From: a virus
Reading direction: 5' to 3' (one strand)
Length of the DNA stretch: 38,113 nt
IMG/VR virus record: IMGVR_UViG_3300031823_000018
Span: 1 to 38,113 of that record
In this document: positions 2,659 to 38,113 of the stretch, piece by piece
Layout: each line of letters begins with the position of its first letter
Numbering within the stretch: the first letter of the stretch is position 1
Position numbers and translations under genes: made by a program
The notes under the pieces: generated by a model
What the model was told of the DNA's origin: nothing
Seen by the model: only the letters and a program-made list of their open reading frames with translations
Databases searched by the model: none

Positions 2659-4296
2659 TTAGCTGTTCGAGATATTGTTCAAGATCCCGATCGCAAACGG
2701 GGCATACACCGCCAGGACTTCCTGACTGTAAATCCCGTAGTATTGCGACCGCGAGACCTTAGGCCACACCTCGGCATAGTAGTCTTGTCGGGTTTGTACC
2801 GCGGCCACTTCCGGCACCGCGTTCGACACATACCAAGGCGGCAGATTCTCAGCCCAGGTCAAGATCGTGCCTGGCGCCAAGTTCGGGTGGATGTTGATCG
2901 GGATGCGCACCCCGCCATCCGGGGTGAACGGATTGTAGTAGAAGGCGACCACCCCTGCCGCAGTGGCGCGATATTCGACGCCGCCGGCGGCATCCGTCTC
3001 GGTCACGAAGCGCAGCAACGGGCTGCTGGCGCCATTCATCACGCGCTTAGTCAGGTTCAGCAATTCCTGACTGTTCACGTACATCACCGTGGGCGAGATC
3101 AGACTTTTGTTCCACATAGCCTGGAACATCGTGTCGATCTCGTTGACTGACCCCATACCCGAGCTGGTCAGCGGGGTGCCGACGCCAACTGGGCCCGTGG
3201 CGAAGGTATTGACGTAAGCACCACTGGTAGTCAGGAACCCCCAGGTGAGCAAACCGTCAAAGGCGTAATTGGTATTGGTCGAGCAGTTGGCCGTGATGGC
3301 ACTGGCCGATTGGTTTGTGGTGGTCAGAGCCGAGGTAAAGGTGACGCTGTTCAGCGTGGTGATGGTTTGCAGCGTCTCCGAGCCCGCCGGCGTGCTCGCA
3401 TACCAAGCGTAGGCCACCGCGCCGTTGACCGCGGGCACGGAGAGCGTCAGGTTTTGCGTGCTGGTCACGATCTGAGTCTGCGCAGCCGACTTGTTCGACG
3501 ACCCGCCATTGACCACATAGGTCTTGCCGTCGTTGCCGGTGACTGTCAGCGCCGCGGCCACACCGTTCGCCACTGACGAGTTCAAGAACCCTTCCTGGGT
3601 CAACGCCACCACATAGGCCGAGTAGGTGCCTGCCGCCACCGTGCTGGTGGTGCCACCGGCACCGGTGACAATAGTGCCGGGTGTGGCCAAGGCCAGCGAA
3701 CGATCGCCGCCCAGCAGGCCCGCCTCTTCTTTGATGAAGGTGCGCAGGAGCAGGCGGAGCTGCACCAAAGCGTCTTCATCCTCGAAGCCCTCGGCAGCAA
3801 AGCGCGCCTCCTCGGACAGACTGTCTTCCTCGCCGATGGTCATGTAACTCAGCGAGTTGTTGGTGGTGACATAGCTCATGCTGGCCGAGCGTTGGCCCTC
3901 AGGCACCCACCCCATGAACGGCTGACCGGAGCCGACCGTGCTGGTGATGGTTTTCCAGTGCGCGCTGTCACCCGGATGCTGCCGTTGCAGACGCGGCAGG
4001 GTGTTGCGCAGCGGCGTCACCGTGGGGAACAGATTCAACGCCGGCGCCCGCAGATCGTAGTAGGTCAGGCCGGAGCTGATGGTGACATTCTTTTTCAATG
4101 TCTCATCGTTCAGCTCGCCCGGAGACATCGGGTTGCCGAAGGCGACCTTGAAAAAGTCGAGGGTTTGCTCAGCCTGATCATGGCTGAGAAACCGGGCACG
4201 GCTGGGCTTGTCGCTGTCAGTACCGTTGATCGCCATCATCAATTTGGCAATCGCCGGCTCCCGCGACTTCTGCACGGGGGCAAGTTTGTTTTCCAC
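2659..4296 (-). CDS. Major-capsid-type protein, paralogue 2 (545 aa)
   Basis: Full-length paralogue of the 529-aa protein at 145-1734. It has the same block order: KKNVTISSGLTYYDLRAPAL, the WVPEGQRSASMSY segment, EEDSLSEEA, a Ser/Thr/Gly-rich beta domain (about residues 205-335), and the ending YSQEVLAVYAPFAIGILNNI. It lies directly downstream of the prohead protease/scaffold gene, the usual place of the major capsid gene, so this copy is the more likely principal subunit. I chose the GTG at 4296 because AGAGGAG sits eight bases upstream; the GTG at 4305 overlaps that site. Having two full-length capsid paralogues is unusual. Possible roles are a hexamer/pentamer division of labour, as in T4 gp23/gp24, or a decoration subunit. 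Confidence 0.8.
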   Translation of the reverse strand: MENKLAPVQKSREPAIAKLMMAINGTDSDKPSRARFLSHDQAEQTLDFFKVAFGNPMSPGELNDETLKKNVTISSGLTYYDLRAPALNLFPTVTPLRNTLPRLQRQHPGDSAHWKTITSTVGSGQPFMGWVPEGQRSASMSYVTTNNSLSYMTIGEEDSLSEEARFAAEGFEDEDALVQLRLLLRTFIKEEAGLLGGDRSLALATPGTIVTGAGGTTSTVAAGTYSAYVVALTQEGFLNSSVANGVAAALTVTGNDGKTYVVNGGSSNKSAAQTQIVTSTQNLTLSVPAVNGAVAYAWYASTPAGSETLQTITTLNSVTFTSALTTTNQSASAITANCSTNTNYAFDGLLTWGFLTTSGAYVNTFATGPVGVGTPLTSSGMGSVNEIDTMFQAMWNKSLISPTVMYVNSQELLNLTKRVMNGASSPLLRFVTETDAAGGVEYRATAAGVVAFYYNPFTPDGGVRIPINIHPNLAPGTILTWAENLPPWYVSNAVPEVAAVQTRQDYYAEVWPKVSRSQYYGIYSQEVLAVYAPFAIGILNNISNS

Positions 4297-4340
4297 GAAG
4301 AGCACTCCTCTACGGCAGTTGCGACGAAAGGGGAAAAGCC

Positions 4341-14100: not shown

Positions 14101-16534
14101 TCATCTGCTGCGGCGGACCCAGCCGGTGGGTTTGCGCCGCGCCATTGTCGTAAGATTGGACATAATCAAGCTGGGCCTCGATCCAATTATCGTAACAAAT
14201 AAAGCACTTATGCTCATCGAAGGCGCCGTCCGCGCCCACCTGATCCATGACAAAAACAATATCGCTATCAGGGTTGGAGCCAATAAACACGTCCATCTGC
14301 TGCTCATCGGCGCCCACGGTGCGGCGGATGTAGCCGTAATGGGTCATCATGGTGCTGGCCCAGTCACCGGTCTTGCCTTGGCGCACCGAGCCGGCGGCGT
14401 TTTCAATGGTAATATCCAAACCCTGCCACTGAAAATGCCCCATGCAGTAATTGCCCGCCTGACGCTGCGGCAAGGTGGGCGCGGGGTGCGCCTGGGCCGC
14501 GGCGGTGTCGATCTCCTCGGCGGTGATCTTGGCCAAGCCGTCTTCATAGACCAGCGGGACTTCCGGGCCGAACAGCAGCAAGCCGGCATAGGGTTCGACG
14601 GAGGGGTCCGCATCCTCGGAGTCATCGCCGGGGAGGGAGTCTTCATCGTCCGGGCCCTCCTTGCCCAGGCTGATGCTCAGCTCGGACGCGAGGAGCCCGC
14701 CCAGCGCCCGCGCGCGCATCTCCAGCGCCGGAGAATGAATGACAAGGTGCCACCCGTCATCGTCTTCGCGCAGCTCGCGCGCGTCGCCCTCCACCACCAG
14801 CAATGGCTGGTCTTCATCCAAGAGGAACGGCAGCCCCATTTGTCCGACAAAACTGGCGATCTCCACTTGCGTGTTGCTGGGCACGTCAAAGCCGTGCTGC
14901 TTGCCCCATTGCTGGAGATCGAAGACGTTGATCAACGGGCGCACCAGCAGACCGGTGCGGGTACCCGCCAGTTTGTTCATCTCCGCGCCCCCGGTCTCGA
15001 CGCCTTGCCCGGCAGCGGCCTGGGCGGGTGCTGTCGACGGTTTGGGTAGCGCAGGCATCCCCGGCTTGCCACTACCGCCGAACGGCTTGGGCGCCCCGCC
15101 TAGGACCGGCTGGCCGGACCCGGCAGCGCCCGGCGCCCCTGCCGTGGCAGCCGGCGCCATCAACCGTGCCTGCACGGCCTGCGCCTGATCCTGGTGCTGC
15201 TGAAAGCTGTTCAGTGGCACGTAGCCGGTCGCCGTGGCGAACATCGGCTCAGCCGCGGCGCCGCCAATCGGATCCAAGCCGACATCGTCGCGCACCTCGT
15301 CAATCGATTCGATGCCCGCGCGCACGTATAAATTGTCGATGGTCGCAGCCTTGATCGGATCGAACTCGCGGTCTTCCTGCCAGGTGAATTCCAGATCCTC
15401 AATACCCAATTCCTCACGGTTGATCTTATTGATCAAGCGCGCGATCCACCGCATGGTCGGTTGCAAGCCCTCGGCCTGCGCTTGCTGCACGCTGGTTTGC
15501 GCGGTCGCTCGATTCATCTGTTTAATAAATGGCTGCGGAGAGATCGAGAAGGCGTAGCAAATCACCTTGGCCAGCCACGCATCGAATTCGTCAAACAGCA
15601 ATTCTTTCTGAAACGGCGTGTACTTGCTGCCTGCCGGCACCCACCACAGGCGCGCCCGCTCCTCGATATTGCCACGGAAGATCGAATCCCAGTGGCCTTG
15701 AACGTCGTTGACCTGCTCTTGCGTGAGGCTGGCCGGTGCTTCCATGACACCACGCGGCACATCACCATACTGATAATATGCCAACTGCTCGCGCACGCGA
15801 CCGATCGACAATTCGACGTAAGCCGCAATTTGCTCCACCGGACCGTAACCGTACATATGGTCGGGGCGTGCGTTCTTGATGGCATAGATCATATCGCCAG
15901 CAGTGTAAGCCGCGTAGTCTGATGCCGGAACGCCCTTCAGCACTTGCTGGTAGGCCACGCTGGGCGGCGCGGGGATGCGACCATCGGCATCGACCTTGAC
16001 GCTGATGGTGGCCGCGTCCAATTGCTCCAATCCATACACTTGGCCGCCGCGCGTGCGGCGCTTGTACAAAGCCACCGCATCATAGACAAAATGCTGCTCC
16101 AACACCGAGCGAATCCACTGCTGCCAATCCAGGCGGCGATCCGGCTTCTCCCAAAACTTGGTCAGCATATCAATCGCATCAGCATTGGCCCTACGCGCTT
16201 GCCGGCGCTTGTCCCCGGCCACCTTAGGCTGGATGTTCCAGCGCAGTGATTCGATCTGATCCTTACGAGTCTCCAGCACCATGCGCAGAATTGGTGACAC
16301 ATGCGACAAGTGCTTCAAACGCGAGAAGGACATTGGCTCCCATGCACGCGGGAGATAATTCAAGTTGAACGCCACCGGGAAATCCCAAAGCCGCCCCTTG
16401 ACCTCGGGGGCCATCGGCTGGAGCGGCTGCATGGGCGACATCCACGTCTGCGGTGTCACCCCCGCGATCGTGTAGCGCACCGCCTGGGTCAGGCGTTGCC
16501 GAAAGCCGGGATTGGGTTTGGGCAGATCAGACAT
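11114..16534 (-). CDS. Portal protein fused to polyvalent domains and a MuF-type head protein (1806 aa)
   Basis: Residues about 1-450 are a phage portal protein (e.g. FEFTWQEDREFD-like C-terminal part; RGVMEAPASLTQEQVNDVQG). About 690-825 match the inorganic-pyrophosphatase-like domain of phage polyvalent proteins (DITIENAAGSVRQGK; HYGYIRRTVGADEQQMDVFI). Linkers at about 855 (FNSDQPRDDHGRW) and 1170 (FNPDQPRDEHGQW) repeat a motif common in phage MuF-type proteins. About 1230-1480 is a conserved phage domain with HDYFGH and ENAWRSH. About 1610-1800 are MuF/SPP1-gp7-like, with the terminal PAHPNCRCDIEIA motif. AAAAAGGG precedes the start. Portal and MuF are normally separate genes; here a single chain links them through enzyme-like domains, which probably enter the cell with the DNA or act in the head (inference). 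Confidence 0.9.
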   Translation of the reverse strand: MSDLPKPNPGFRQRLTQAVRYTIAGVTPQTWMSPMQPLQPMAPEVKGRLWDFPVAFNLNYLPRAWEPMSFSRLKHLSHVSPILRMVLETRKDQIESLRWNIQPKVAGDKRRQARRANADAIDMLTKFWEKPDRRLDWQQWIRSVLEQHFVYDAVALYKRRTRGGQVYGLEQLDAATISVKVDADGRIPAPPSVAYQQVLKGVPASDYAAYTAGDMIYAIKNARPDHMYGYGPVEQIAAYVELSIGRVREQLAYYQYGDVPRGVMEAPASLTQEQVNDVQGHWDSIFRGNIEERARLWWVPAGSKYTPFQKELLFDEFDAWLAKVICYAFSISPQPFIKQMNRATAQTSVQQAQAEGLQPTMRWIARLINKINREELGIEDLEFTWQEDREFDPIKAATIDNLYVRAGIESIDEVRDDVGLDPIGGAAAEPMFATATGYVPLNSFQQHQDQAQAVQARLMAPAATAGAPGAAGSGQPVLGGAPKPFGGSGKPGMPALPKPSTAPAQAAAGQGVETGGAEMNKLAGTRTGLLVRPLINVFDLQQWGKQHGFDVPSNTQVEIASFVGQMGLPFLLDEDQPLLVVEGDARELREDDDGWHLVIHSPALEMRARALGGLLASELSISLGKEGPDDEDSLPGDDSEDADPSVEPYAGLLLFGPEVPLVYEDGLAKITAEEIDTAAAQAHPAPTLPQRQAGNYCMGHFQWQGLDITIENAAGSVRQGKTGDWASTMMTHYGYIRRTVGADEQQMDVFIGSNPDSDIVFVMDQVGADGAFDEHKCFICYDNWIEAQLDYVQSYDNGAAQTHRLGPPQQMTVAEFKHWLTTADLHAPKTLSKWGAANADSPFDPMTGAATKAFNSDQPRDDHGRWSESGASAGPKSRFSTQLSWEAAPGRTMHALPEFHNASLAQRQAYHDAIEHQLVDAQGRDVIATRLGLETKPTVSGPGVFEGHVNPSSQAIVYARTEKGGDGRLSQDSKDRLDVAQAVRGALLRQDASAWHSVVYAGAHVAPHDANLIDVNVGRPLTNEEAVRVNAAITEHTGSADLSPITTATGFRVLNIPEYTKLDNATFQGKMAHALIDVRVPSATATRAKAEFGYIANDWQERPRGQNYLAVLRTRGRSDLSGRADRLVSELGPKISSVEDAYAARLGWTVDRTTRFWETGTEKVLRKDFNPDQPRDEHGQWTGGGGGSTSDGHGDSQSSSRAATGELPHRGGVSGSAGGVASSGAADSAHGEKPLEGLPGHVKVPGVGPIVVGPNAIARQAARDYMQKAGLSYTPPTQYVKVDPVRATRIADEFDRMKDAPHDPVVKAAYGKMIEEVVAQYQAVKDTGLKVEFIDYAKHGDPYAASPRLAALDVEKNNHLWVFPTSAGFGSDAHFDVSKNPLLAPTKEVDMHGHPMVANDVFRVVHDYFGHIKEGNGFRADGEENAWRSHVAMFSPEAARAMTTETRGQNSWVNYGPYGESNRTASSATTHFADQKIGLMPEWTVREGAGDLAKRWSRLRADDPLAKARRRRVIVNRDPAWPSEPQIQAMADVVKTAFDRLRHAVVQAVGTHLGKADPAPQQQAASLMASVKIQDELHTIVTLEPVLGRIGTLAGQSAVRAVMLAAGKGGEGGGSRDIFDTVDQRVAAAARARSAELIGMRYNARGKLVPAARATMRIDETTRTMLREGLGEAISTGMTAAQIQTGLMADTGELAYPFSAARALTVARTEAAFARGGGALEGYKATADQYDLELQKRWVGDDPCREICQPNVDQDWINLDDAFDSGDDTVPAHPNCRCDIEIAVIDPDTGEPSEDGPDAGADDTEE

Positions 16535-16840: not shown

Positions 16841-17167
16841 TCAGCCTTGAATATCGCGCTTCTGGCGCAGCACACGATCGATGTCAGATTGGGTAGGCAT
16901 CTTGGTGAGCGACCGGCGCAGCTCGCGGCGGCGACGGCGTTGGTCCTGCTCCAGGTAAGTCTTCAGCACCACCTCGTAGTCGAGCGGATGCAAGGTAATG
17001 GCGTCGGCGTGGACGATCGGCACCGGCTCACCAATGCGAAACACGCCCAGAAGCTTGCCCTTGGCATAAAGCGCTTGCACGCCCTCAGGAATCTCTGACG
17101 ACTTGCGCACAACCAAACCGTTGATCTCGCGCGGCGCATAGCCCACGGGTTTGCGGGTTTTTTCCAT
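16841..17167 (-). CDS. Hypothetical phage protein (108 aa)
   Basis: First gene of the operon leading to the portal. N-terminal part has the segment VVRKSSEIPEGVQALYAKGK followed by LLGVFRIGEPVPI; the C-terminal part is highly basic and helical (DQRRRRRELRRSLTKM). The middle resembles, weakly, the 70-aa protein at 1865-2077. The start at 17167 (ATG) is reasonable, although its ribosome site is poor. Structured element copy C lies about 90 bases upstream on the same strand. Function unknown. Confidence 0.7.
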   Translation of the reverse strand: MEKTRKPVGYAPREINGLVVRKSSEIPEGVQALYAKGKLLGVFRIGEPVPIVHADAITLHPLDYEVVLKTYLEQDQRRRRRELRRSLTKMPTQSDIDRVLRQKRDIQG

Positions 17168-17255
17168 GACAAATTTGATCCTTGAGTCAAGCGGCGCCAG
17201 GCCGCACGGCAGCTCTGCCAGCTAAAACAATATCTTAGCGCGCTGGCGCTTAATT

Positions 17256-17396
17256 ACTTGAAAGTGAATAAGGCCGACAAGCCGACTGCCAGTATATACA
17301 AATTGCTAGCCTTAAGGGTGGTGGGGAGGCCATGCTCCAGGTGAAACCCAGAAAACCCATGCTTCCCCACCATTCTAAGGTCCGGTCTTCTTTCCA
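17256..17396. repeat. Structured intergenic element, copy C
   Basis: Longer version of the element, shared with copy D over about 140 bases. Plus-strand order: direct repeat GCCGAC-AA-GCCGAC, TATATA at 17293-17298, GCTAGCCTTAAG, then the main stem 17320-17330 with 17361-17371 (GGTGGGGAGGC with GCTTCCCCACC, 11 pairs including one G.U). The stem closes a 30-nt loop with GTGAAACCCA, and a conserved CTTCTTTCC follows. A T-A pair here replaces a C-G pair in the other copies, which supports a real helix. Read on the minus strand, TATACT faces the 108-aa/cold-shock/portal operon. It occupies most of the 266-base gap. Confidence 0.8.
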
Positions 17397-22325: not shown

Positions 22326-22579
22326 TGGCGCTATCCCGCTTTCTGCTGCTGGCACTGCTGATACTGCCCGCCGGCGTGGCGCGGGCGGATAGCGGGGCGC
22401 TGTGGCGCATCGTGAACGGGCGCTGCGTGCCCGACCAGCAAGATCACGCCAATCCCGCCCCGTGCGAGGCGGTGGCGCTGGACGGCGGCTGGGCGGCGCT
22501 GAAGGATATTGTCGGCACCACACAATTTCTGCTGATCCCCACCGCGCGCCTTGCGGCGATGCGTTGGGGGAAGAGCTAG
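22322..22579 (+). pseudogene. cdh: N-terminal fragment of CDP-diacylglycerol diphosphatase
   Basis: Signal peptide (SRFLLLALLILPAGVARA) followed by ALWRIVNGRCVPDQQDHANP, APCEAV, GGWAALKDIVG and TQFLLIPTARL, the conserved start of the CDH family (about 250 aa). Homology ends after TARLAA, at the left edge of a 48-bp repeat that supplies the last residues and the stop. ATGA overlap with tyrS (ATG at 22322) shows the two were an operon in the source genome. The intact enzyme hydrolyses CDP-diacylglycerol in the periplasm; this fragment lacks the catalytic part. Confidence 0.75.
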
Positions 22580-22600
22580 ATCGACAGGTTGTCGATCTAG
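22553..22600. repeat. 48-bp repeat, copy 1
   Basis: Matches 29742-29789 at 46 of 48 positions. The right half is a perfect dyad (arms CTAGATCGACA and TGTCGATCTAG, 3-nt loop); the left half reads GCGTTGGGGGAAGAG. It begins exactly where cdh homology ends. The second copy also begins where a short gene-like frame ends. Shared flank sequence outside the 48 bases is not apparent. Confidence 0.8.
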
Positions 22601-22684
22601 CTTGATGATCGACAGGTTGTCGATCTAGCTCTTCGACAGACGAATTGTCTGTCGTGTATCTCCATAGACATATTGTCTATGGAG
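22576..22684. promoter_or_regulatory. Cluster of four related dyads
   Basis: Four inverted repeats: 22576-22600 (11-bp arms, loop GGT), 22607-22625 (8-bp arms, loop GGT), 22634-22654 (8-bp arms CGACAGAC/GTCTGTCG), 22660-22684 (11-bp arms CTCCATAGACA/TGTCTATGGAG). All share a GAC...TTGTC core. The last includes the GGAG ribosome site of the frame that starts at 22693. The layout suits operators of an autoregulated gene, or alternatively a transcript with stacked hairpins. Confidence 0.6.
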
Positions 22685-24794: not shown

Positions 24795-25715
24795 TTACGA
24801 AGCCCTAAGTTTTTCCATTTCACGCATTTTCTTTTGATCTGCTTCTAGCTCGGAAAACTTCGCCTCCACCATTTCGCCATCCCATAGCTCACCTTCGTAA
24901 TCCAGATCGCGGTCAGGTAGCGCCGAGAACAATTCTCGCCATCCTTCAGTTTCCGCCTGGGTGCCACTCTGATTCACGAGATGCTTACGAGTTTGCCACG
25001 CCAATATGTCAGCCGCCTGAAGCAGGTAATAGTGGCGCGCATCACCAAAGCTGATTGCTGCGACGCGACTTGCCATGCGTGGGTCCCGCTTATTGATGTG
25101 CTCAAGCAGCCGCAGCCTAGGCCGAGCGAACTGATAATCCCGGTTAAACACCAGTTCTATGGCGTCGCGCTCCTGGGCTTGATCTAGCCGATCGATGATC
25201 CGCCGCAGGAGTCGTTGAAAGCAGAACTCCTGAGCATCACCAAACGACTTGCGCCTTTGGCTTGAAAGCTTGCGCCATACGTCCGCATCAACCGCCACAC
25301 CGAATCCGATCAGCTGCGAATCCTTAATTGCCCCAATGAACTCGCTCAGAACGCGGTGACCATAGTTTAGTGCCCATTTCTTTTCTCGTCGCGTTCCTTC
25401 CCAATCCTTCATATGTACGGCTGGAATGCCATGACGCATAAGCAAATGGCGCCACCGTTGCTGAAAGCCCCACCACACCTGATCGTGAGCGAGATAACCA
25501 GCGATACACACGAATCTGTGGTCGCCCTGGCTTTCTTTTCCACTATCGTCAAAGAAGGCTTCGATCACGACTCGATACTCCGGACGGATGAGGGCCGACC
25601 GGAACGCAGGACGCCAGCCGGGCGCGCTCATGGTGCGCTCCCGATCATAGCACGAATGGGAACGTGAAGTATAATATCGCCGATCCAAGGCTGGTTGATC
25701 AGAATCGTCGGTCAT
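24795..25715 (-). CDS. DUF3800 domain protein (306 aa)
   Basis: DUF3800 pattern: VVIEAFFDDSGKESQGDHRF with the acidic FFDDSG motif near the domain start, then FVCIAGYLAHDQVWWGFQQR, the mid-protein ELVFNRDYQF, and the late acidic/aromatic pattern GDARHYYLLQAADILAW with 'QAADIlaw'. The fold is RNase-H-like and often considered a nuclease. The GAGGA eight bases before 25715 supports the long form; a start at 25631 would still keep the whole domain. DUF3800 genes are frequent in phages and prophages, commonly as accessory genes next to lysis genes. Anti-defence or defence roles are possible but not shown. Confidence 0.85.
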   Translation of the reverse strand: MTDDSDQPALDRRYYTSRSHSCYDRERTMSAPGWRPAFRSALIRPEYRVVIEAFFDDSGKESQGDHRFVCIAGYLAHDQVWWGFQQRWRHLLMRHGIPAVHMKDWEGTRREKKWALNYGHRVLSEFIGAIKDSQLIGFGVAVDADVWRKLSSQRRKSFGDAQEFCFQRLLRRIIDRLDQAQERDAIELVFNRDYQFARPRLRLLEHINKRDPRMASRVAAISFGDARHYYLLQAADILAWQTRKHLVNQSGTQAETEGWRELFSALPDRDLDYEGELWDGEMVEAKFSELEADQKKMREMEKLRAS

Positions 25716-25726
25716 AAGTGGATCCT

Positions 25727-26347
25727 CTACGATTGAATGGCGCTCCTAGCCTTATATACGATGGTGGCCAAATATACGATGGTGGCCAAACGCCGCATCC
25801 AGCCAAGGCCAAAGCGATCAAACCCGGCGGCCAGGGCGTAGGCCAGGGCGCGCTGCGCCACCAGCTCGATAAACAGTGCTTCGGGATCGGCCGCGGCGAT
25901 CGCCGCCCTTGAGATTGGGCCGATCGTGCCATCAACATCCACGCCCACCGCCGCTTGCACCAGACGGGCGATGCGCGCCACTCCTTGGTTGACCGCGCCA
26001 TCGAACGCCAACACGGCCAGATCACCCGGCATGACGTCGGCGCCGATCGGCACCCAATAATCTGTCAAATAGATCGCCTGCGCGTCGGCCAAGGTCAGGT
26101 TGACGATGTCAAGCGTCGGGTAGGACTTGGCGCTGATACCGTATTTGGTGCCTTTAAGCTCGCCAACTCCCTGCGCGCCGCCGGTCCAGTTACCGGCATC
26201 GACGGGGTTATTGTCAAAACCCCCTTCGACATTGACCACCGCCGGGAAGGCGATGGCGGTGAAAAAGTCGGCGGTGGCCGCGCGCACGACCCCAAGCTTG
26301 GAGTCGGCGGTAGTGACCACGCCGGGACTGTGCGCGCCACCGCTCAT
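25727..26347 (-). CDS. Endolysin, glycoside hydrolase family 108 (206 aa)
   Basis: Cleaves peptidoglycan at the end of infection. Catalytic-site segment VVNVEGGFDNNPVDAGNWTG (Glu41 the likely acid), KGTKYGISAKSYPTLDIVNL, LADAQAIYLTDYWVPIGAD, DGAVNQGVARIARLVQAAVG and the peptidoglycan-binding-like DVDGTIGPISRAAIAA follow the family order. No signal peptide or N-terminal anchor is evident, so release probably depends on a holin among the small membrane proteins upstream. The ATG at 26347 overlaps the previous stop (ATGA). An 18-bp tandem duplication adds ATIVYL-ATIVYK near the C-terminus. Confidence 0.9.
   Translation of the reverse strand: MSGGAHSPGVVTTADSKLGVVRAATADFFTAIAFPAVVNVEGGFDNNPVDAGNWTGGAQGVGELKGTKYGISAKSYPTLDIVNLTLADAQAIYLTDYWVPIGADVMPGDLAVLAFDGAVNQGVARIARLVQAAVGVDVDGTIGPISRAAIAAADPEALFIELVAQRALAYALAAGFDRFGLGWMRRLATIVYLATIVYKARSAIQS
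25755..25790. repeat. Perfect 18-bp tandem duplication
   Basis: TATACGATGGTGGCCAAA occurs twice in direct succession (25755-25772, 25773-25790) inside the endolysin's C-terminal codons, adding six residues without breaking the frame. Consistent with a recent slippage event. Confidence 0.9.
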
Positions 26348-26634
26348 AGCACGAACCTCGCACCACAACAACGACAAGCCTGCACATGAAAAAACGTGGG
26401 ATGGCTCAGAACACAATCTTGACGATCGTGTTTCCGGCCATCCACGTATTCTCGTACCCAGGGTATACCCACATCTTGAACCCCACTCGCCCAACGGCGT
26501 TGCCCCCACCCCAACCAGCGCCAGCGCTTGCAGGCGTAGACTGGGTACCAAGCGAACCATTCTTGCCACCGATCGGCTTGTGACAGAAGGCCAAAGCGCT
26601 GGGCAACAGCAGCGTGCGAAGCGTCATCGATCAT
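26344..26634 (-). CDS. Trp-rich small phage protein (96 aa)
   Basis: Contains DRWQEWFAWYPVYACKRWRW and LGWGQRRWA, a pattern I recognise loosely from small uncharacterised phage proteins of the type 'W..WFAW.PV......W.WL'. Both ends are coupled: its ATG overlaps the stop of the 270-aa gene (ATGA) and its stop overlaps the endolysin ATG (ATGA). That favours this frame over a 73-aa alternative in another frame at 26406-26627. Ends with a Cys pair, CRCCGARFVL. Confidence 0.6.
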   Translation of the reverse strand: MIDDASHAAVAQRFGLLSQADRWQEWFAWYPVYACKRWRWLGWGQRRWASGVQDVGIPWVREYVDGRKHDRQDCVLSHPTFFHVQACRCCGARFVL

Positions 26635-29696: not shown

Positions 29697-29768
29697 ATGC
29701 CAAGATATGCGATTGCATTCGAACTAACGCCCTCCGTCATGGCGGCGAAGCGTTGGGGGAAGAGCTAG
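29697..29768 (+). pseudogene. Fragment of an unidentified gene, VapD-like start (23 aa)
   Basis: ATG with GGAG seven bases upstream, encoding MPRYAIAFELTPSVMAA before the frame enters the 48-bp repeat and stops (KRWGKS). The opening RYAIAFEL recalls VapD-type endoribonucleases (YAIAFDL), but the match is too short to rely on. It is rightward, alone in a 317-base gap between leftward phage genes. Its truncation at the repeat parallels that of cdh at 22553. Confidence 0.4.
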
Positions 29769-29789
29769 ATCGACAAGTTGTCGATCTAG
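29742..29789. repeat. 48-bp repeat, copy 2
   Basis: Second copy of the repeat at 22553-22600 (46 of 48 identical). The dyad at 29765-29789 keeps both 11-bp arms; only the loop differs (AGT for GGT). Flanks on both sides are unrelated to those of copy 1. Confidence 0.8.
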
Positions 29790-30115: not shown

Positions 30116-30390
30116 TGGCTGGCCGCCGCGTGCAAAATGCCATCAGCCATTTCCGCCACCGACAAGCCCTCGCGAAATTCGTCGTGCACATCACCCACCA
30201 GCCGCGCCGTTTCATCGAGCGGCATGGCCACGCCACGGGCGACAATACCAACCACCTCGGTCAGATATTGGTCATAAGTCATGAACCCCTCCACGACAGG
30301 ATCGGCCGCTGCCGGGCCGGCGCCGATCGCCTCGTCCCCGCCCCAATGGGCCATGCGCAAGCACCAGTCTTTCAGAAACGTGGTTTTCAT
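30109..30390 (-). CDS. Hypothetical protein downstream of TerL (93 aa)
   Basis: ATG at 30390 overlaps the TerL stop (ATGA) with GGAG upstream. Encodes MKTTFLKDWCLRMAHWGGDE and the helical segment RLVGDVHDEFREGLSVAEMA. Soluble, acidic. Coupling to TerL suggests a packaging or head-joining accessory role, inferred from position only. Confidence 0.65.
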   Translation of the reverse strand: MKTTFLKDWCLRMAHWGGDEAIGAGPAAADPVVEGFMTYDQYLTEVVGIVARGVAMPLDETARLVGDVHDEFREGLSVAEMADGILHAAASQW

Positions 30391-31952
30391 AACTCGATCG
30401 TCTCCTCGACCTGGACGCACCCAGCCTGAATCAGGCCGGCCAAGTGCCTCGGGTGTGCTTCTATAGACGCATCACCATCGGAGACGTAGCGCTTTCCCTG
30501 GCCGTCGGGGCCAGTTACATAATAAGCCATGAATGGATCGGGCGCCTTGAGCTTGATTAAAGCTTGGTCCAGCGCGGTTTGCAACCGGATGCCGGGGGCG
30601 GTCGCGGCGATCTCCTCATCACGCTTCACAATCCGTTCGTGCCGCGATTTATAATAATCAACCCAGCCCGAGGCATTCTCGCCCAGCATCAACTCGGTCA
30701 ACGCCCACACCAACGCATCGCAGCGATTCGGCGAACCCAATCCCGTAAACCCACTATCCGAAAAGCTCACTTGCTCGTCCTCAAGGGCATCGAAACGACC
30801 GACATGATGCACCTTGCCCTGCGCATACAGCGCCGACACCGGCTCGGCCCGCTGCACCTTGCCACGGCTGGCCGTCACCAGCGTCACCGGCACGCTGCCA
30901 TCAACGGTGCGAATAACATATTCGACCATGGCGCCGCCGAAATTGACCTCGGCCACGATGCGGTCGGCCTTGTGCGCATGATAGGCGGCTACCGCAGCGC
31001 GCCCCCACTCATTGGGACCAGCCAGCAGTGTGTCATCGGCCAGCACATAGGCATGGCCATCGGCGCCGCGACCCACCACCACAATGCCGATCGGATCATG
31101 TCCCAGATCGAGGGAGTTGGCGGCGCCGGACGGGTCAACCCCGACCACCACCCGCTGCAACGGCGGCAATTCGGCGCGGGTGATGCGGCAAGCCTCCAGC
31201 CCGGTGAAGGTCCACAGAGCGCTGGCGACCTCGTCGACATAGACACCATCGCGGAAGCGTGCACGGATCCGCGCCGGCATGGCATCCAGCGAGGCCAGAT
31301 AATCAGGATCGAGATGCTCGGCGTGGTCGCGCGGATTGAGGTAAAAGCGCTTGTAGTTGTGCGGATCATCCAGCTTGTGTTTGGTGAGCGGGTTGCGGTG
31401 CTCGCCGAACAGCATATTGGTCCAGTGGCCGAGCCCGAGCGGGTTCAAATCGTAATAGGCGCGCTGACGCATGCCCGCGACCTTGGCAGCCAAACGGCTC
31501 AGCGCAATTAATACCGAATTATACGGTATCTCGCTGCATTCATTGAAGAAAATACTCAAATATTCCTTGCCGAGGATCTTATCGACTCGACTCTTTTCAT
31601 CCAAACCACCCAACCAGATCTGCGATCCGGTATCCAACAACTCAAGATAATGATCGGACAGGTGCATGCGATGCCGCAATCCTTGCGGCCAGAAGTGATT
31701 GATCACGAAAGGGATGGTTTGCAGCCCGACGCTGGGCCAAACGCTGTTTTGACGAAACCGCAAGATGGCTTGCGTGCAGGGGACGACCAAACCGCGGATG
31801 ATCATGGCGCGGACGATCAGGGCAGTCTTGCCCGAGCGGGCGCCGCCGACCAGGCACAGATGGCGGGCAGGTGAGCCCAGCAACTCATCGTTGGCTTGCG
31901 CCTGCTTGAGTGTCAGCAGATGGAGGCCGCAATCGCCCTGTTCGGCTAGCAT
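30387..31952 (-). CDS. terL: Terminase large subunit (521 aa)
   Basis: DNA-packaging motor. ATPase signatures: Walker A GGARSGKT at residues 36-43; Walker B LSIFFNECSE at about 135-145. Nuclease domain of RNase H type: VVVGVDPSG at about 268 (first Asp), DRIVAEVNFGG at about 330 and NRCDALVWALTEL near 410 (distal acidic site). Length is typical. The start at 31952 is nine bases after the preceding stop; its ribosome site is weak, so translation may be coupled. A longer upstream frame would overlap the 75-aa gene. Normally adjacent to TerS; here separated by an IS and a non-coding region. Confidence 0.95.
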   Translation of the reverse strand: MLAEQGDCGLHLLTLKQAQANDELLGSPARHLCLVGGARSGKTALIVRAMIIRGLVVPCTQAILRFRQNSVWPSVGLQTIPFVINHFWPQGLRHRMHLSDHYLELLDTGSQIWLGGLDEKSRVDKILGKEYLSIFFNECSEIPYNSVLIALSRLAAKVAGMRQRAYYDLNPLGLGHWTNMLFGEHRNPLTKHKLDDPHNYKRFYLNPRDHAEHLDPDYLASLDAMPARIRARFRDGVYVDEVASALWTFTGLEACRITRAELPPLQRVVVGVDPSGAANSLDLGHDPIGIVVVGRGADGHAYVLADDTLLAGPNEWGRAAVAAYHAHKADRIVAEVNFGGAMVEYVIRTVDGSVPVTLVTASRGKVQRAEPVSALYAQGKVHHVGRFDALEDEQVSFSDSGFTGLGSPNRCDALVWALTELMLGENASGWVDYYKSRHERIVKRDEEIAATAPGIRLQTALDQALIKLKAPDPFMAYYVTGPDGQGKRYVSDGDASIEAHPRHLAGLIQAGCVQVEETIEL

Positions 31953-31960
31953 GATCGGAC

Positions 31961-32188
31961 TCAGGAGGTGATGGTGGGGGACACGGAGGCGCGGACCAGG
32001 CGATTGGCCTGCTGCTGCGCCAATTGACTGAACGATTTCAGCAGCGCCCCCCAGGCGTCGGGGCTCGGGGCGCAGATCACCAGGTCGCCGACGAACTGGC
32101 CGGTCGACGTGGTGCATACCAACCGCCAGGTGTTGGGGCTGATCTGGAAGGGAATGGCATTGATGGAGACTTCACCGAGGAGGGCCAT
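31961..32188 (-). CDS. Hypothetical protein upstream of TerL (75 aa)
   Basis: Begins MALLGEVSINAIPFQISPNT and continues WRLVCTTSTGQFVGDLVICA, a beta-rich opening, then a helical half (WGALLKSFSQLAQQQANRLV). Its stop is eight bases before TerL. A CTATACG motif lies 33 bases upstream. Unknown family; it may be a small packaging-related protein. Confidence 0.6.
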   Translation of the reverse strand: MALLGEVSINAIPFQISPNTWRLVCTTSTGQFVGDLVICAPSPDAWGALLKSFSQLAQQQANRLVRASVSPTITS

Positions 32189-32950: not shown

Positions 32951-32976
32951 TGATCGGGCACCCTTGCACCTGAGTC

Positions 32977-33116
32977 ACTTTAATGTGAATAGGGCTGGCA
33001 AGCTGGCTTCCATTATATACAAACCGCTAGCCTTAAGGCTAGCGGGAAGGCTATTAGCTTCGTGAAAGCCATTAAAGCGCTGCTTCCCCGCCATTTTAGG
33101 GGTCAGACTTCTTTCC
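32977..33116. repeat. Structured intergenic element, copy D
   Basis: Homologous to copy C along its whole length: direct repeat GCTGGC-AA-GCTGGC (GCCGAC twice in copy C), TATATAC, then a perfect 22-base palindrome 33024-33045 (CCGCTAGCC-TTAA-GGCTAGCGG). The main stem is 33042-33051 with 33082-33091 (GCGGGAAGGC with GCTTCCCCGC, same A.C mismatch as copy A, one G.U). It closes a 30-nt loop with GTGAAAGCCA, and CTTCTTTCC ends the element. On the minus strand a perfect TATAAT replaces TATACT of copies A and C. The IS1595 element begins 70 bases to the right. Confidence 0.8.
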
Positions 33117-33285
33117 TTTGACTCCGGTCCTAAAACCGGGTTTTACATCAGTTTTTGTATCGACATCAATGGCGTGCTCTGCCCAAAGCGGACATGTACA
33201 CTTTAGGGCTTGACATCATCTAATAGACCCATTAAGTTACTCCCATGAGCGCGGCAATGGGCCGGCTCCTAATGGGAGACGAAAG

Positions 33286-33555
33286 ATGAACCGGAACTAC
33301 ACTCACCCGACTATCGACCAGCAATGGGCGCTGAGCCGTGAGACGCACGAAGCGGTCGCGACGGCGATCCATGCTATTGCCGACAGCCGCCGTAGCGCCC
33401 AAACGATCTGGGAAGCGCCGACACAGGCGGAGTTGGACCAGGTAACGATGGCCGTTGAGGAATACATCCGCCACGGTGATTTTTCTGCTGAGCCTGACGG
33501 GCGCTACCAATGGGGTTTCGAGACCATCCGCCTCGACCAGCCGGCTGAAGGCTAA
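33286..33555 (+). CDS. IS-associated passenger protein (89 aa)
   Basis: Encodes MNRNYTHPTIDQQWALSRET and EATP-like acidic segments, ending ETIRLDQPAEG. A good ribosome site (GGGAG) precedes the ATG. It lies within the IS inverted repeats, upstream of and in line with the transposase. Passenger frames of this kind occur in some IS1595-group elements; no function is known to me. Confidence 0.65.
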   Translation: MNRNYTHPTIDQQWALSRETHEAVATAIHAIADSRRSAQTIWEAPTQAELDQVTMAVEEYIRHGDFSAEPDGRYQWGFETIRLDQPAEG

Positions 33556-33558
33556 GCC

Positions 33559-34208
33559 ATGACCGGCATCGTCGAAATCTATCGGCGCTACCCGACCAAA
33601 GAGGACTGCATCGCGCATCTCGAAAAGGTGCGCTGGAATGACAAGCCGCTCTGCCCCTACTGCGGGGCAGAGCGCGTCTCGCGCCATCGTGAGGCGCTGC
33701 GGGATGACCGATGGCAATGTCAGCGGTGCGAGCGCTCTTTCTCGGTCACGGTCGGGACCATCTTCCATCAAACGCACGTCGATTTGCAGCGCTGGTTTCT
33801 GCTGATCTCGCTCATGCTGTCGGCCAAGAAAGGGTTGTCTGCGATGCAGGCCGCGCGTGACCTGGAGATGCGTCGCCCGACCGTGTGGAGTATGATGCAT
33901 CGCATCCGCAAGGCGCTCGCTGATGACGGCAAGCTCCTGGCCGGCATCGTTGCGATGGACGAAACCTATGTCGCAGGCAAACCTCGCAAGCGCAACCGGC
34001 GCAGCGACGATCCGCTCTACGGCTCGACGCACACCAACACGATCGACGGGACTTTTGGGCGCTGGTGAAGCGCGCGATCTACGGCCAGTTCCACCATGTC
34101 AGCCGGAAGTACCTGCCGCTGTACCTGGACGAGATCACTTGGCGCTTCAATCAGCGCAGCAACCCCGGCGCCTTCGACCATGCGCTGCATGTTGCGGTCA
34201 AGCCCTAA
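33559..34208 (+). pseudogene. IS1595-family transposase, internal deletion and frameshift
   Basis: N-terminal zinc-ribbon (CPYCGAERVSRHREALRDDR ... QCQRCERSFSV) and the helix-turn-helix-like MLSAKKGLSAMQAARDLEMR are intact, as is the first catalytic Asp in IVAMDETYVAGKPRKRN. After DDPLYGS the next segment of the family (about 80-90 residues including the second catalytic Asp) is missing. The sequence resumes at THTNTID. A one-base loss in TTTT then shifts the frame: the C-terminus WALVKRAIYGQFHHVSRKYL to the TAA at 34206-34208 is readable only in another frame. Inactive. Confidence 0.85.
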
Positions 34209-34493
34209 AGCGCACATGTCCGCTTCATACAGCGTGGCGGTGCCGACGATGCGCGGGGCCGCGATGGTTGGAGGCATTGCTGATCCTGACTGAGTCCTGA
34301 TCTCTTATACGAAAAGGACTCGCCCCGGAAAAGGATCGACCCAGGACATCAAGGGCACTTGCTGTCCCGGGCCGACAAGGTGAGGGAGGAACCAATGACA
34401 CCACGGGTGCCCTGCTGACAGGGGCTTCAACCCAACCTGTGCCACTCGTCATTGTGTATTAAACGATGCGGAACACCAAAATCAAGAGGGAAG

Positions 34494-35066
34494 TTATAAC
34501 CTTGTGTCGCTTCCTGTCACCCGGATCACCCGATTATTGGTGGTGGGGGCATCAAGAGGAGTGATTGATTCACGCCAGCCGGCGCGCATTTTCAGCCAGG
34601 AAAAGGTCGCCGCCGGGAATTCTCCTGAGCAAGCCAGGGCATGTGCGGTCTCCGCCACCTGGCATACCGCCTCAAGATGGCCGACATCCAGCTCGGTGCG
34701 GTAATAATGCACCAAAGTGTTGTGATTGGTACCCAGCAGCTTGGCGATGTCAGTCTCCGAAAGACCAAAGCCGGCCAATGCGCGCACGCATCGCCGCAAG
34801 GCGCGGGTCGGGGCCTCGCCGCGGGGATCGATCTCACCCTGCTCGACGCCGTCCAGTAATGCCCGCATCTGCTTGGTAATCGGGTGGCGGGCTAGGGGTT
34901 CGATCGGCGTTCCTTCCAAGGCGACCACCGCTTGGCTGTCAGAAATAGGCAAAACTTGCTTGCGCAGGCGCCTGCGCGCACGGAGTTTGTCCGGGAACGG
35001 CAACACCGAGCCAGGCGGCGAGACGTGCAAGACATGACGGTCGGGAGGATCGGGAGGATCAGCCAT
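34494..35066 (-). CDS. Terminase small subunit-like protein (190 aa)
   Basis: Central helix-turn-helix GLSETDIAKLLGTNHNTLVH and the segment following it (YRTELDVGHLEAVCQVAETA; ATFSWLKMRAGWRES) match the pattern of phage small terminases that bind pac DNA. The N-terminal third is basic and probably disordered. The ATG at 35066 overlaps the NusG-like gene by eight bases; a longer upstream reading lies inside that gene and is unlikely. It recognises viral DNA and hands it to TerL, which lies 2.5 kb downstream beyond the IS and the hairpin-rich region. Confidence 0.75.
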   Translation of the reverse strand: MADPPDPPDRHVLHVSPPGSVLPFPDKLRARRRLRKQVLPISDSQAVVALEGTPIEPLARHPITKQMRALLDGVEQGEIDPRGEAPTRALRRCVRALAGFGLSETDIAKLLGTNHNTLVHYYRTELDVGHLEAVCQVAETAHALACSGEFPAATFSWLKMRAGWRESITPLDAPTTNNRVIRVTGSDTRL

Positions 35067-35601
35067 GAGGAATTTCGACCGCGCGGGGCCGCGGCACCAA
35101 CTGTTGCGGGGGAAGGGTGACCAGGCGTTGTCCACCCAACACGTCGAGCAGGATGGTCACGCGCTCTTTGGCACTGTGGACACACAAGCCGCTGGCGCCG
35201 TGAAACAAGCCGCCGGTGATCTGGGTGGTATCACCCGGCTCGAAGCGGCGCGGGCGATTGTCGAACTGCTCGTAAGGGCCGGCCTCGGCGCGAAGCTGCT
35301 CGACGTAGCCTCGTGGCAGCGGTAGCGGGGTCTCGGCATCACAACCCATCAGCCGGGAGACGCCAACGGTAGTATGAATGCGGCGCCAGGCTAAATCCAA
35401 AATGTCGAATGATATAAACAGGTAGCGTGGGAACAAGGCGTTGATGAGGGTCTTTTGGGTGCGCCGCGACTGTTCCAACACGACCGGATAGAAAACAATA
35501 AATTTTTCGTGCAGCAGGGCTTTCTTCGCCAGGGTCTCCTGGTGATAATTGCTTTGGACACAGTACCAGGTCTGGGGATCATTCAGTAAAACATCAGACA
35601 T
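35059..35601 (-). CDS. NusG/RfaH-like transcription elongation factor (180 aa)
   Basis: N-terminal NGN domain: TWYCVQSNYHQETLAKKALL, FYPVVLEQSRR, LINALFPRYLFISFD, HTTVGVSRLMGCD. The C-terminal KOW domain: RRFEPGDTTQITGGLFHGAS then LLDVLGGQRLVTLPPQQLVP. This is the pattern of specialised NusG paralogues (RfaH, LoaP, ActX), which bind RNA polymerase and a nucleic-acid element and suppress termination in long operons. As the first gene of the leftward late region, coupled to TerS, it is well placed to drive late read-through. The intergenic structured elements are candidate recruitment sites. Confidence 0.85.
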   Translation of the reverse strand: MSDVLLNDPQTWYCVQSNYHQETLAKKALLHEKFIVFYPVVLEQSRRTQKTLINALFPRYLFISFDILDLAWRRIHTTVGVSRLMGCDAETPLPLPRGYVEQLRAEAGPYEQFDNRPRRFEPGDTTQITGGLFHGASGLCVHSAKERVTILLDVLGGQRLVTLPPQQLVPRPRAVEIPHG

Positions 35602-35694
35602 TGCCCCGCCATCCGCGTATCGTGCGCCGCGGAACGCGGCACCCTCTTAGCGAATTGTGCCGGGAGAAACAAGCGCGATCGTGCTCGGAAGCCT

Positions 35695-35721
35695 TTGACG
35701 ACATTAATTCAATTTTATGCG
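35695..35721 (+). promoter_or_regulatory. Weak rightward promoter candidate
   Basis: TTGACG at 35695-35700 and TATGCG at 35716-35721, with a short 15-base spacer, in the 194-base divergent gap between the NusG-like gene and the rightward genes. AT-rich between the boxes. It is the only recognisable sigma70-like pair in the gap. Confidence 0.3.
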
Positions 35722-35795
35722 ATGCCCTTGTCACACGGGGAAAAGCGCCTTATCTGGGGTGGAATAGGTCGTGAAACAGGTTGGTTGTCAAGCCG

Positions 35796-36338
35796 ATGCC
35801 CGCCGTCAAAGCCGCGTTAGAGTCGTTCGATCTCCTCTCTGCCTTCGACAAATTGGTCGAAGGGGCGTCGCGCGACGAATTGCGGGCGATCCAGGAGCGA
35901 ATCGCTTATCTGCTCGCGGTCGAGCGTGCGAGTTTCGATGACTTCGAGGGCGCCCTGTGGCTGGCGCTGGCGCGCGCGGTGCCCGGCCGCCGAGCCGCGA
36001 CGTTGGCCGGACTGGAGCAATTCGTCTATAGTCTTCATGCCGAGCCTGACATGAATGAAGGATATGGAATCATCCCCTACCGCGCCGCCTGCCAAACCGT
36101 GCTGCACTTCCTCAAGGCCCATACCAATGGGCCACTGCGCCCAGCCGTGCGCAATCGCCTGTTGGACGCGGCACTCCAATGCGTCAAAATCACCCTGTGC
36201 GAGCGCAATATGCCGGTCACCCGTAAGACTGTCCTGAAAGAAGCGGCGACGAAGCTCGAATGGAACATCGACCAACAGTTCCCCGGCTATGCCGCAGCGG
36301 GGCTGCTGACTCACCTGGCCAGGGTGGAGGTTGCTTGA
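35796..36338 (+). CDS. Hypothetical protein, first rightward gene (180 aa)
   Basis: Helical protein beginning MPAVKAALESFDLLSAFDKL, with ASRDELRAIQERIAYLLAVE and the C-terminal KTVLKEAATKLEWNIDQQFP. Soluble. No family recognised. The TTG at 35781 is an alternative start; neither has a strong ribosome site. It heads the operon with primase and a sigma-like factor, so it is likely an early or replication gene. Confidence 0.65.
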   Translation: MPAVKAALESFDLLSAFDKLVEGASRDELRAIQERIAYLLAVERASFDDFEGALWLALARAVPGRRAATLAGLEQFVYSLHAEPDMNEGYGIIPYRAACQTVLHFLKAHTNGPLRPAVRNRLLDAALQCVKITLCERNMPVTRKTVLKEAATKLEWNIDQQFPGYAAAGLLTHLARVEVA

Positions 36339-36339
36339 G

Positions 36340-36708
36340 ATGACCAAACTTGCCGAATTTCATGATCGCCGGGCAGGCCAGCCTGCCTATCACCACGCGC
36401 TTGCCTCCGAACCCTATCTTGCCGCCCTGGTCTCGGTGCGCCAGGCTGCGGAACAGGCGCAGCAGGCAGCGCTCACCGCCCAGCACTTCCCGATGTGGGT
36501 GGTGTTGGGCCCCACCACCAGCGATTACCCTGGCCGCTATTGCGCGCGCTTGTGGGTGTTGGAAAAGGAGGTGCGCCGGCGCGCGGCTTCTCGCGGCCTG
36601 GTGTTGGCCGATTCGCTGCCCGAGCTGCGGGCCTTGCTCCCCCCTAATCTGATCCGGCTCGACCGCGTCCCTGATGACGACCCCACCATCCTGGAAGTCT
36701 GGATTTAA
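36340..36708 (+). CDS. Hypothetical protein (122 aa)
   Basis: Starts MTKLAEFHDRRAGQPAYHHA one base after the preceding stop, with GGAGG nine bases upstream. Contains a helical stretch (SVRQAAEQAQQAALTAQHFP) and the beta-type segment MWVVLGPTTSDYPGRYCARL, ending DDDPTILEVWI. A conserved-looking small phage protein of unknown function beside the primase, possibly involved in replication. Confidence 0.65.
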   Translation: MTKLAEFHDRRAGQPAYHHALASEPYLAALVSVRQAAEQAQQAALTAQHFPMWVVLGPTTSDYPGRYCARLWVLEKEVRRRAASRGLVLADSLPELRALLPPNLIRLDRVPDDDPTILEVWI

Positions 36709-36710
36709 CC

Positions 36711-37628
36711 ATGGCCGTTGACTGGCGAGCTTTGTTCGCCGATCTCGGTATTTTTTGGGTCGATCACGGGCGCAATTGCGGTCGCGACCACATTAATATT
36801 CAATGCCCTTGGTGCGACCTGCTTGACCCCAGCCAGCATCTAACAATCCACGAATTCAAGGGGGTGTACTACTGCTACCGCGATCCTCGACACAAGGGCG
36901 GCGAGCCGCTGTATTTGATCCAAAAGCTGGTGCGCTCGCGCGCCAGGGCCGCGGCGCTGCTTAATGCCTATTACATCGAAACCGGCACCAGCACACCGGC
37001 GCCGATCGAGGCTACTCCTTACGACGACTTTTTGCCTGCGCAGCAATCGGCCGACGTTTTAGACTACCTCGCCGCGCGCGTGTTCGAGCGACCGGAGTGG
37101 GTGTGCCGGTTTTTCAATCTGCGCGTCAGCCTGAAAGGCACCTGGGCCGGCCGGGTGCTGCTGCCCTTGCGCGCCTGTCGGACGCCGCCCCCGGCCGGGG
37201 TGCAGGCGTGGACCGGACGAGCGCTGTCGCCCTGGCTGCAACCACGCTACCGCCAGAGCGAGGTGCCAGCGGGCAGCTCGTGGATCGGAGGCATCGCCAG
37301 CGGTGAAACCTTGGTGGTGGTGGAGGGCCCGTTCGATGCGTTGAAAATAAACGCCGCCTGCGCCCAGCATCTCGCTCAAATTTCCGCAATATCGTTGAAT
37401 GGGCTCAAACTCAGTCAGGGCGCCTCCCGCTTGGTCGCCGAATTACAACCTCGCCGAATCTTGATCGCGTTGGATGAGGGTGTTTCACTTGCGACCGTGG
37501 CTTCAGTTCGATATAATCTACAACACAGTTGCCCCCGCGCCGTCATCGGGCGGCAATCGGTCCCCGACCGACAAAAAGACCCGGCGGCAATGAGCGAGCA
37601 AGCAATCCGAACCTGGCTTGCCGTCTAA
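36711..37628 (+). CDS. DnaG-type primase-like protein (305 aa)
   Basis: N-terminal CHC2-like zinc-binding region: QCPWCDLLDPSQHLTIHEFK followed by YYCYRDPRHKGG. The TOPRIM domain has the catalytic Glu in ETLVVVEGPFDALKIN (about residues 198-213) and the acidic ALDEGV at about 250. The second acidic motif is DEG in place of the usual DxD, so activity may be altered. The protein lacks the long RNA-polymerase-binding and helicase portions of cellular DnaG, as in small phage primases. The start is three bases after the previous gene; GGAAG lies upstream. It presumably synthesises primers for phage replication. Confidence 0.8.
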   Translation: MAVDWRALFADLGIFWVDHGRNCGRDHINIQCPWCDLLDPSQHLTIHEFKGVYYCYRDPRHKGGEPLYLIQKLVRSRARAAALLNAYYIETGTSTPAPIEATPYDDFLPAQQSADVLDYLAARVFERPEWVCRFFNLRVSLKGTWAGRVLLPLRACRTPPPAGVQAWTGRALSPWLQPRYRQSEVPAGSSWIGGIASGETLVVVEGPFDALKINAACAQHLAQISAISLNGLKLSQGASRLVAELQPRRILIALDEGVSLATVASVRYNLQHSCPRAVIGRQSVPDRQKDPAAMSEQAIRTWLAV

Positions 37629-37646
37629 AATTGAGGGAGGAATGCC

Positions 37647-38113
37647 GTGGCGTTGCCACAATGGGAAGGTACCTTCGAGAACTACTCACGGAGTTTTGTT
37701 TATAAAAATCGAGGTCGCGCCGAGCAGACGCTCCCCACTCGCGACGACGCGCTGCAAGAATGCGCTGTCGTCTTTACGCGCATTATATCGAAATACGGCA
37801 CCACTGTCACCGAACCGCGCCACTTTATGGCTCTCTACAAAACCGCCTTGGCGAATCATTGGATCGATCTGGTGCGCAAGCAGGCGCTTCGTCCAGTGCT
37901 GACGCCAATGACCGAAGAGATTGAAAAACAATGGAAAGAACAAGGCGACATCGACGGGACGCCGGTGCAACTCCTATGGCGGCAAGCCTCGCGCGAGTTG
38001 AAAGCGGTACTGACCAAAATCGCCAACGGTCCTCAAGAGATTGTGAATCTTCTGTTGGATGAAAACGCTCCCAACACCAATTTATTGTGGCAACGGATTG
38101 CCCAAACCCCCTG
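37647..38113 (+). CDS. Sigma-factor-like protein, 3' end outside the window
   Basis: GTG start with GGAGGA five bases upstream. The first 75 residues follow sigma-70 region 2: TFENYSRSFVYKNRGRAEQT, DDALQECAVVFTRII (core-binding helix, compare ECF 'eDalQevfl'), then FMALYKTALANHWIDLVRKQ (compare 'fraWL..ia.N..iD..Rk'). The remaining visible residues (to 155) are helical; region 4 is not yet recognisable. I have seen similar openings in alphaproteobacterial phage proteins annotated as sigma factors. A phage sigma would give promoter specificity, and the recurrent CTATACG/TATAAT motifs before late genes are possible targets. Confidence 0.65.
   Translation, partial: MALPQWEGTFENYSRSFVYKNRGRAEQTLPTRDDALQECAVVFTRIISKYGTTVTEPRHFMALYKTALANHWIDLVRKQALRPVLTPMTEEIEKQWKEQGDIDGTPVQLLWRQASRELKAVLTKIANGPQEIVNLLLDENAPNTNLLWQRIAQTP

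Follow-up and report, generated by a model that had tools for sequence, protein, structure and literature searches.

The window analysed here is the entire viral record IMGVR_UViG_3300031823_000018 (38,113 bases, linear, probably a fragment), in which a NusG/RfaH-type gene, a sigma-like gene and four short repeated elements occur together. An initial annotation had joined them into a self-contained late transcription system, with the elements as recruitment sites. We read them as three separate things, a probable NusG late antiterminator, a sigma-like protein of the extracytoplasmic function (ECF) type and four solitary guide-RNA units of the TIGR type (E1 to E4), and give this reading a probability of about 0.74. 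On sequence grounds the elements are TIGR-type guide-RNA units by structure and family, and they are not the recruitment element of NusG or sigma.

Four solitary TIGR-type units

The four elements share the loop TGAAACCCA and flanking stems, and take the form GCCA-N9-TGAAACCCA-N9-TGC within a palindromic stem of 10-16 bp (one mismatch allowed). The boxes are exact in E1 to E3, and E4 has two mismatches.

1786-1837, plus strand: TIGR unit E1, 11-bp stem, GCCA-TCAATCAGC-TGAAACCCA-GATCACCCG-TGC
2368-2419, plus strand: TIGR unit E2, 11-bp stem, spacers CGCGCCGGT / TTAGTGAGC
17315-17376, plus strand: TIGR unit E3, spacers TGCTCCAGG / GAAAACCCA, TATATAC at 17293 (plus strand)
33042-33091, plus strand: TIGR unit E4, spacers TTAGCTTCG / TTAAAGCGC, two box mismatches, TATATAC at 33014

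A unit finder returned these four in the window; 60 order-1 Markov resamplings of the window sequence gave no unit, and neither did 80 capsid-relative loci (980 kb) or their reversals. The intergenic elements singled out by the initial annotation are thus real, but they lie at 1.8, 2.4, 17.3 and 33.1 kb, outside the control region, and point the opposite way to the late genes.

Their family became visible in viral contigs at large. A first scan with the pattern TGGGTTTCA-N8-RTGGCC yielded 88 stretches, about a dozen with true stems and some of them in arrays, and a second scan found 36-nucleotide tandem arrays in many contigs. The consensus of 408 units is GCCA-N9-TGAAACCCA-N9-TGC with near-zero information in both N9 stretches. 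Clusters of units sit between co-directional genes, the next gene lying on the TGAAACCCA strand in 88 of 109 cases, and 65 of 228 cluster-adjacent proteins belong to one family whose representative matches Pfam Transposase_20 (IS110-like, 1e-5) and phrog_4285. TIGR-Tas systems are composed of alternating repeats that start with UG and end with CCA, 9-nucleotide spacers and a Nop/IS110-related protein, and in their stem-loop array class palindromes replace the edge repeats (Faure et al. 2025, PMC12045711). It is because the anatomy of the arrays equals this published anatomy that E1 to E4 are assigned as TIGR-type guide units: they have the two 9-nucleotide spacers of the stem-loop arrays, each flanked by CCA (box C) and UG (box D), the loop-repeat-like TGAAACCCA and a palindromic flank instead of an edge repeat. 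In the related records the units adjoin a Nop/IS110-like Tas protein, whereas the window fragment has no detectable Tas. Rfam gave no relevant match for the window or the arrays, and a text search of the literature for the element motif returned nothing relevant; a genome-collection scan with the stem-type pattern gave 43 single matches and says nothing on dual-repeat arrays in bacterial genomes.

Each of the four units would yield a tigRNA that directs a Tas (Nop-domain) protein to DNA by its two 9-nucleotide spacers, one for each strand. For 980 spacer pairs, the expected target arrangement of spacer A followed by the reverse complement of spacer B (gap 0-2) showed no excess over controls in 2.9 Mb or in the pairs' own contigs. 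Within the window the best self-match of E2 (16/18, gap 1, 16902-16920) and that of E3 (15/18 at 16947) both fall inside the gene at 16841-17167; random spacer quartets place self-matches this close with p of about 3e-4, a post-hoc value, the E3 mismatches include a seed position, and we do not claim these matches as a target. Two more unannotated families repeatedly adjoin TIGR arrays (21 and 14 loci; L080, L086, L105, L141, L276, L314 and related loci), and hhalign shows no similarity of either to Tas or to each other. A further phage contig (L127-L128, G011) carries NusG together with at least 20 tandem stem-type TIGR units in gene gaps across 4 kb.

The arrangement in the window is different from that of an array. 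The units are single, 0.6 to 16 kb apart and on the plus strand, against the minus-strand late genes, and each has an AT-rich promoter-like box just upstream on the plus strand. The box of E1 is TATA-like, with a plus-strand open reading frame (ORF) downstream at 1865-2077; E3 and E4 share promoter-like upstream sequence across 147 nucleotides, and a terminator-like hairpin (33123-33140) follows E4. Upstream of E3 (17249-17299) and E4 (32970-33020) there are also direct repeats, GCCGAC-AA-GCCGAC and GCTGGC-AA-GCTGGC respectively, whose two halves change together; they precede the TATATAC box and are a possible activator site. Since the window holds four single units and not the tandem array of a TIGR-Tas locus, we do not file it as a complete locus of this kind, only its units as TIGR-type.

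Four scattered units could also be the decayed remnants of an array that has lost its Tas gene and is no longer used. Their small number, the two box mismatches in one of them and the lack of Tas in 38 kb are what such decay would leave behind, but in three of them the boxes are perfect and the stems intact, E3 and E4 keep their common promoter-like upstream sequence, and scattered single units occur elsewhere together with a Tas homologue, so that we regard decay as unlikely, though a reading to be taken seriously. The last point comes from a 76.7-kb record (G003), in which about 25 stem units are spread from 5.6 to 36.7 kb, many of them alone between genes, with a Tas homologue at 24.6-26.0 kb, which sets a precedent for the solitary layout. 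In other records the neighbours of Tas include RecT, YqaJ/RecE-type nuclease and methyltransferase genes, that is, early-region genes, and the window contig is cut within the early region, where relatives carry their Tas genes. A description of TIGR units scattered singly and far from any Tas gene was not found in the literature; the solitary scattered units are a new variant of TIGR organisation.

A NusG/RfaH-type gene opens the late operon

The late genes run leftward from a divergent intergenic region that begins just upstream of the NusG-type gene.

35602-35780, no strand: divergent intergenic region of 179 bp, from the ORF map and unit scan, with none of the four elements inside
35059-35601, minus strand: NusG/RfaH-type paralogue of 180 aa, opening the leftward late operon; Pfam NusG, phrog_6386, RfaH chains
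34494-35066, minus strand: helix-turn-helix (HTH) protein, probably the terminase small subunit, judging from its position and HTH; phrog_12540 (4.8e-6 on a longer frame)
30387-32117, minus strand: terminase large subunit (TerL), phrog_979 (7e-52)

The 180-aa protein matches Pfam NusG over residues 11-104 (6.4e-15; 55.9 bits against a cut-off of 22.2) and phrog_6386, annotated 'transcription antiterminator', at 2.5e-16. Its best solved relatives are RfaH chains (7e-8, residues 10-154), ahead of NusG at 2e-4; the RfaH alignment reaches into the C-terminal region, where Pfam gives no separate KOW match. By homology, then, the product of 35059-35601 is a NusG/RfaH-type paralogue, and the initial annotation was right that such a protein opens the leftward late region, being the first gene left of the gap. 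Further left come the HTH protein and an IS1595 fragment, then TerL and the structural genes, with minus-strand orientation almost throughout.

This position recurs. In seven contigs (L456, L476, L478, L486, L496, L463 and L514) one or two small genes stand between NusG and a downstream large terminase of the phrog_38, phrog_15 or phrog_5989 type, the small gene in L514 being Pfam Terminase_2. Homologues of the HTH protein of the window lie 1.7-2.8 kb downstream of NusG in five further contigs, several contigs have a divergent upstream gene 200-1000 bp from NusG, and a syntenic record (G106) has capsid, protease, portal, TerL and NusG in the order of the window. The set of 66 viral loci with phage-type NusG was reached with an alignment query; a close-relative search with the NusG protein of the window alone returned none.

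A NusG paralogue that heads the packaging operon across different terminase types is as expected for a late antiterminator, and a role like that of lambda Q is the likeliest for this protein. Given its identity and position, the most likely mechanism is that it would bind the elongating host RNA polymerase and allow read-through of the long operon of packaging and structural genes, which is Q's job in lambda. The two share the position of their genes, and the product in the window would act on the adjacent late operon; the proteins are unrelated, however, and lambda Q loads at a promoter-proximal pause via a DNA site in the late promoter (PMC6606751). With the specialised NusG paralogues RfaH, LoaP and ActX it has in common the NusG N-terminal domain and, for RfaH, a sequence match into the C-terminal region, but it is phage-borne, it heads a packaging and structural operon and no ops-like site was found for it. 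That phages repeatedly place a NusG paralogue first in the late operon is the new variant here.

The sigma-like protein and other features of the window

The rightward operon starts from the 179-bp gap with two genes of unknown function, followed by a primase-like gene and, as the fourth, the sigma-like gene. The initial annotation had NusG and sigma flanking the divergent region, which fits NusG; the sigma-like gene does not directly flank it.

36711-37628, plus strand: primase-like protein, phrog_47 (5.8e-10), weak Toprim
37647-38111, plus strand: ECF-sigma-like protein, cut by the contig end at 38113; phrog_35491, predicted fold

Starting directly after the primase, the gene is cut by the contig end, and its relatives are mostly 166-199 aa. 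The window copy matches phrog_35491, an unannotated family, at 2.8e-10, and a homologue in Edwardsiella phage vB_EpM_ZHS belongs to a replication cluster, where the primase gene lies about 2 kb before it. A pair-alignment scan for the family gave 34 loci. In an alignment of 28 members D34 and an FMALxK motif (F60-L63, K65) are invariant and a DDxxQE-like motif is present, and five of the 28 have a weak Pfam Sigma70_r2 match (best E 0.0034). The AlphaFold model of the piece in the window has a mean predicted local distance difference test (pLDDT) score of 85, above 90 across most of residues 1-80. Its best VIA structure match (residues 1-86) is region 2 of the ECF sigma factor SigE (Z 8.2, 76 residues, 2.2 A); a Z of 8.2 is about the generic level for helical proteins, yet nearly all the leading matches are sigma factors. 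Foldseek alone gave no significant match for this model, with ECF sigma chains as its top six. For a full-length homologue (L426) the 50 best chains are sigma factors almost without exception, and alignments to several of them span both sigma regions with a large overall root-mean-square deviation; SigD4 region 4 fits L426 residues 103-184 at 3.9 A, the copy in the window itself being cut.

Taken together, the phrog_35491 family looks like ECF sigma region 2 and perhaps region 4 and is best called sigma-like, as the window copy lacks a curated profile match; the sigma region-2-like protein that the initial annotation saw in the rightward operon is borne out at the level of the fold, by relatives and predicted structures. 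Judging from the predicted fold, this protein of the replication operon would probably redirect polymerase to some phage promoters. The sigma factors of phages phiEco32 and 7-11 serve middle and late promoters and are likewise sigma70-class genes in a non-structural cluster (PMC4331800), a likeness in the kind of gene and its placement to the unannotated family of the window.

As a target for this sigma the initial annotation had proposed the motif CTATACG. It is over-represented in the window, with six copies against 1.1 expected, and five of the six are intergenic.

1759, 2341, 7372 and 32228 on the minus strand, 18458 and 11560 on the plus strand: CTATACG sites, from a motif scan

Upstream of the capsid genes the motif is absent in 44 relatives, and in G106 it is intragenic. 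We therefore rejected CTATACG as a conserved late promoter, as it is not kept at corresponding places in relatives, and it stands as a possible phage promoter element.

Several further features of the window deserve mention. The IS1595-type fragment (33186-34225) sits between the NusG/HTH genes and E4/TerL, with a transposase at 33559-34068 (Pfam zinc ribbon, 6e-9) and 29-nucleotide terminal inverted repeats that are 93% complementary. A capsid-type paralogue pair (145-1734 and 2659-4305, phrog_13692) has 52% identity, with one copy in G106. The 1806-aa protein encoded at 11114-16534 fuses portal, DarB-like/minor-head and head-morphogenesis stretches, an operator-like palindrome CTAGATCGACARGTTGTCGATCTAG occurs at three places (22553-22645, 29742-29789), two of them in tandem, and a DUF3800 protein adjoins a glycosyl hydrolase 108 endolysin (24795-25715 and 25727-26569).

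Do the three belong together?

NusG is present in 12 of 42 stem-type TIGR records. It occurs in none of 46 records that lack a verified unit, in none of 35 dual-repeat records and in 1 of 50 capsid relatives, and Fisher tests of stem-type against these groups give p of 5e-5 to 4e-4, with near-identical records included and uncorrected for descent; a hand-set de-duplicated stem-type count of 10 of 36 with NusG gives p 1e-4, likewise uncorrected for descent. There may thus be some looser association of NusG with stem-type TIGR. One form it could take is that stem-loop TIGR phages depend on an RfaH-like NusG of their own because the hairpin-rich, untranslated guide-RNA leaders would otherwise stall or terminate transcription. 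We consider this improbable; if it were true, the enrichment of NusG in stem-type and not in dual-repeat records would mean that RNA-guided targeting and antitermination are functionally coupled.

The stricter proposal, that of the initial annotation, takes the elements as sites, on DNA or RNA, that recruit the phage NusG, in the manner of ops or LoaP, with the sigma factor using adjacent CTATACG/TATAAT boxes. The enrichment of NusG in stem-type records and the mostly intergenic excess of CTATACG speak for it, but the elements are oriented against the late genes, their paired 9-nucleotide spacers are unconstrained, the kin arrays are Tas-associated and CTATACG is not conserved in relatives. 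Tested in reverse, the flanks covered hold no unit at 61 of the 66 viral phage-type NusG loci, and among the five exceptions two or more are near-identical; G106, syntenic and with NusG in the same place, has no unit in 23 kb. Units were found near none of the 34 loci of the sigma family in other records, so among the records covered sigma and units stand together only in the window. Since the units are rare near NusG and absent near the sigma family, the proposed triad is not conserved. NusG phages lacking the element were the very observation named beforehand as fatal to the link, and they are the large majority; a self-contained system built on TIGR guide units as recruitment sites is very unlikely.

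Factor-independent antiterminator RNAs like HK022 put, in which promoter-near hairpins bind RNA polymerase directly, would suit hairpins close behind promoter-like boxes and the E1 and E2 stem-loops side by side, but put consists of two defined stem-loops with conserved stems in a leader of about 70 nucleotides and needs both hairpins and specific stem contacts (PMC9378689), whereas the elements have freely varying stems, 27-nucleotide loops with random N9 stretches, single-unit copies in the window and, in relatives, arrays of up to 19-20 units beside a Nop-type protein, and we reject put-like RNA on anatomy as scarcely credible.

The reading as three separate things has results to contend with as well. 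There is no detectable Tas homologue in the 38-kb fragment, whose contig is cut in the early region, and mismatches in the stems are G.T in 58 and A.C in 51 cases, without the G.T preference expected of an RNA hairpin. Upstream of about 40 phage NusG genes there is no convincing excess of ops-like sites and no recruitment site was identified, and some of the 66 NusG loci resemble bacterial capsule loci (L474) and not phage late operons. A Pfam search of the sigma-like copy in the window returned no match.

The outcome is that a tempting but wrong link between NusG, sigma and the elements is removed, and three testable facts take its place. A NusG/RfaH paralogue as the late-operon leader in phages of several terminase types is a possible alternative to lambda Q, and phrog_35491, a phage family without annotation, resembles ECF sigma factors. 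TIGR guide units scattered singly through a phage genome are more like small nucleolar RNA genes than like the arrays described so far, and they bear on the targets of TIGR systems and the origin of their arrays.

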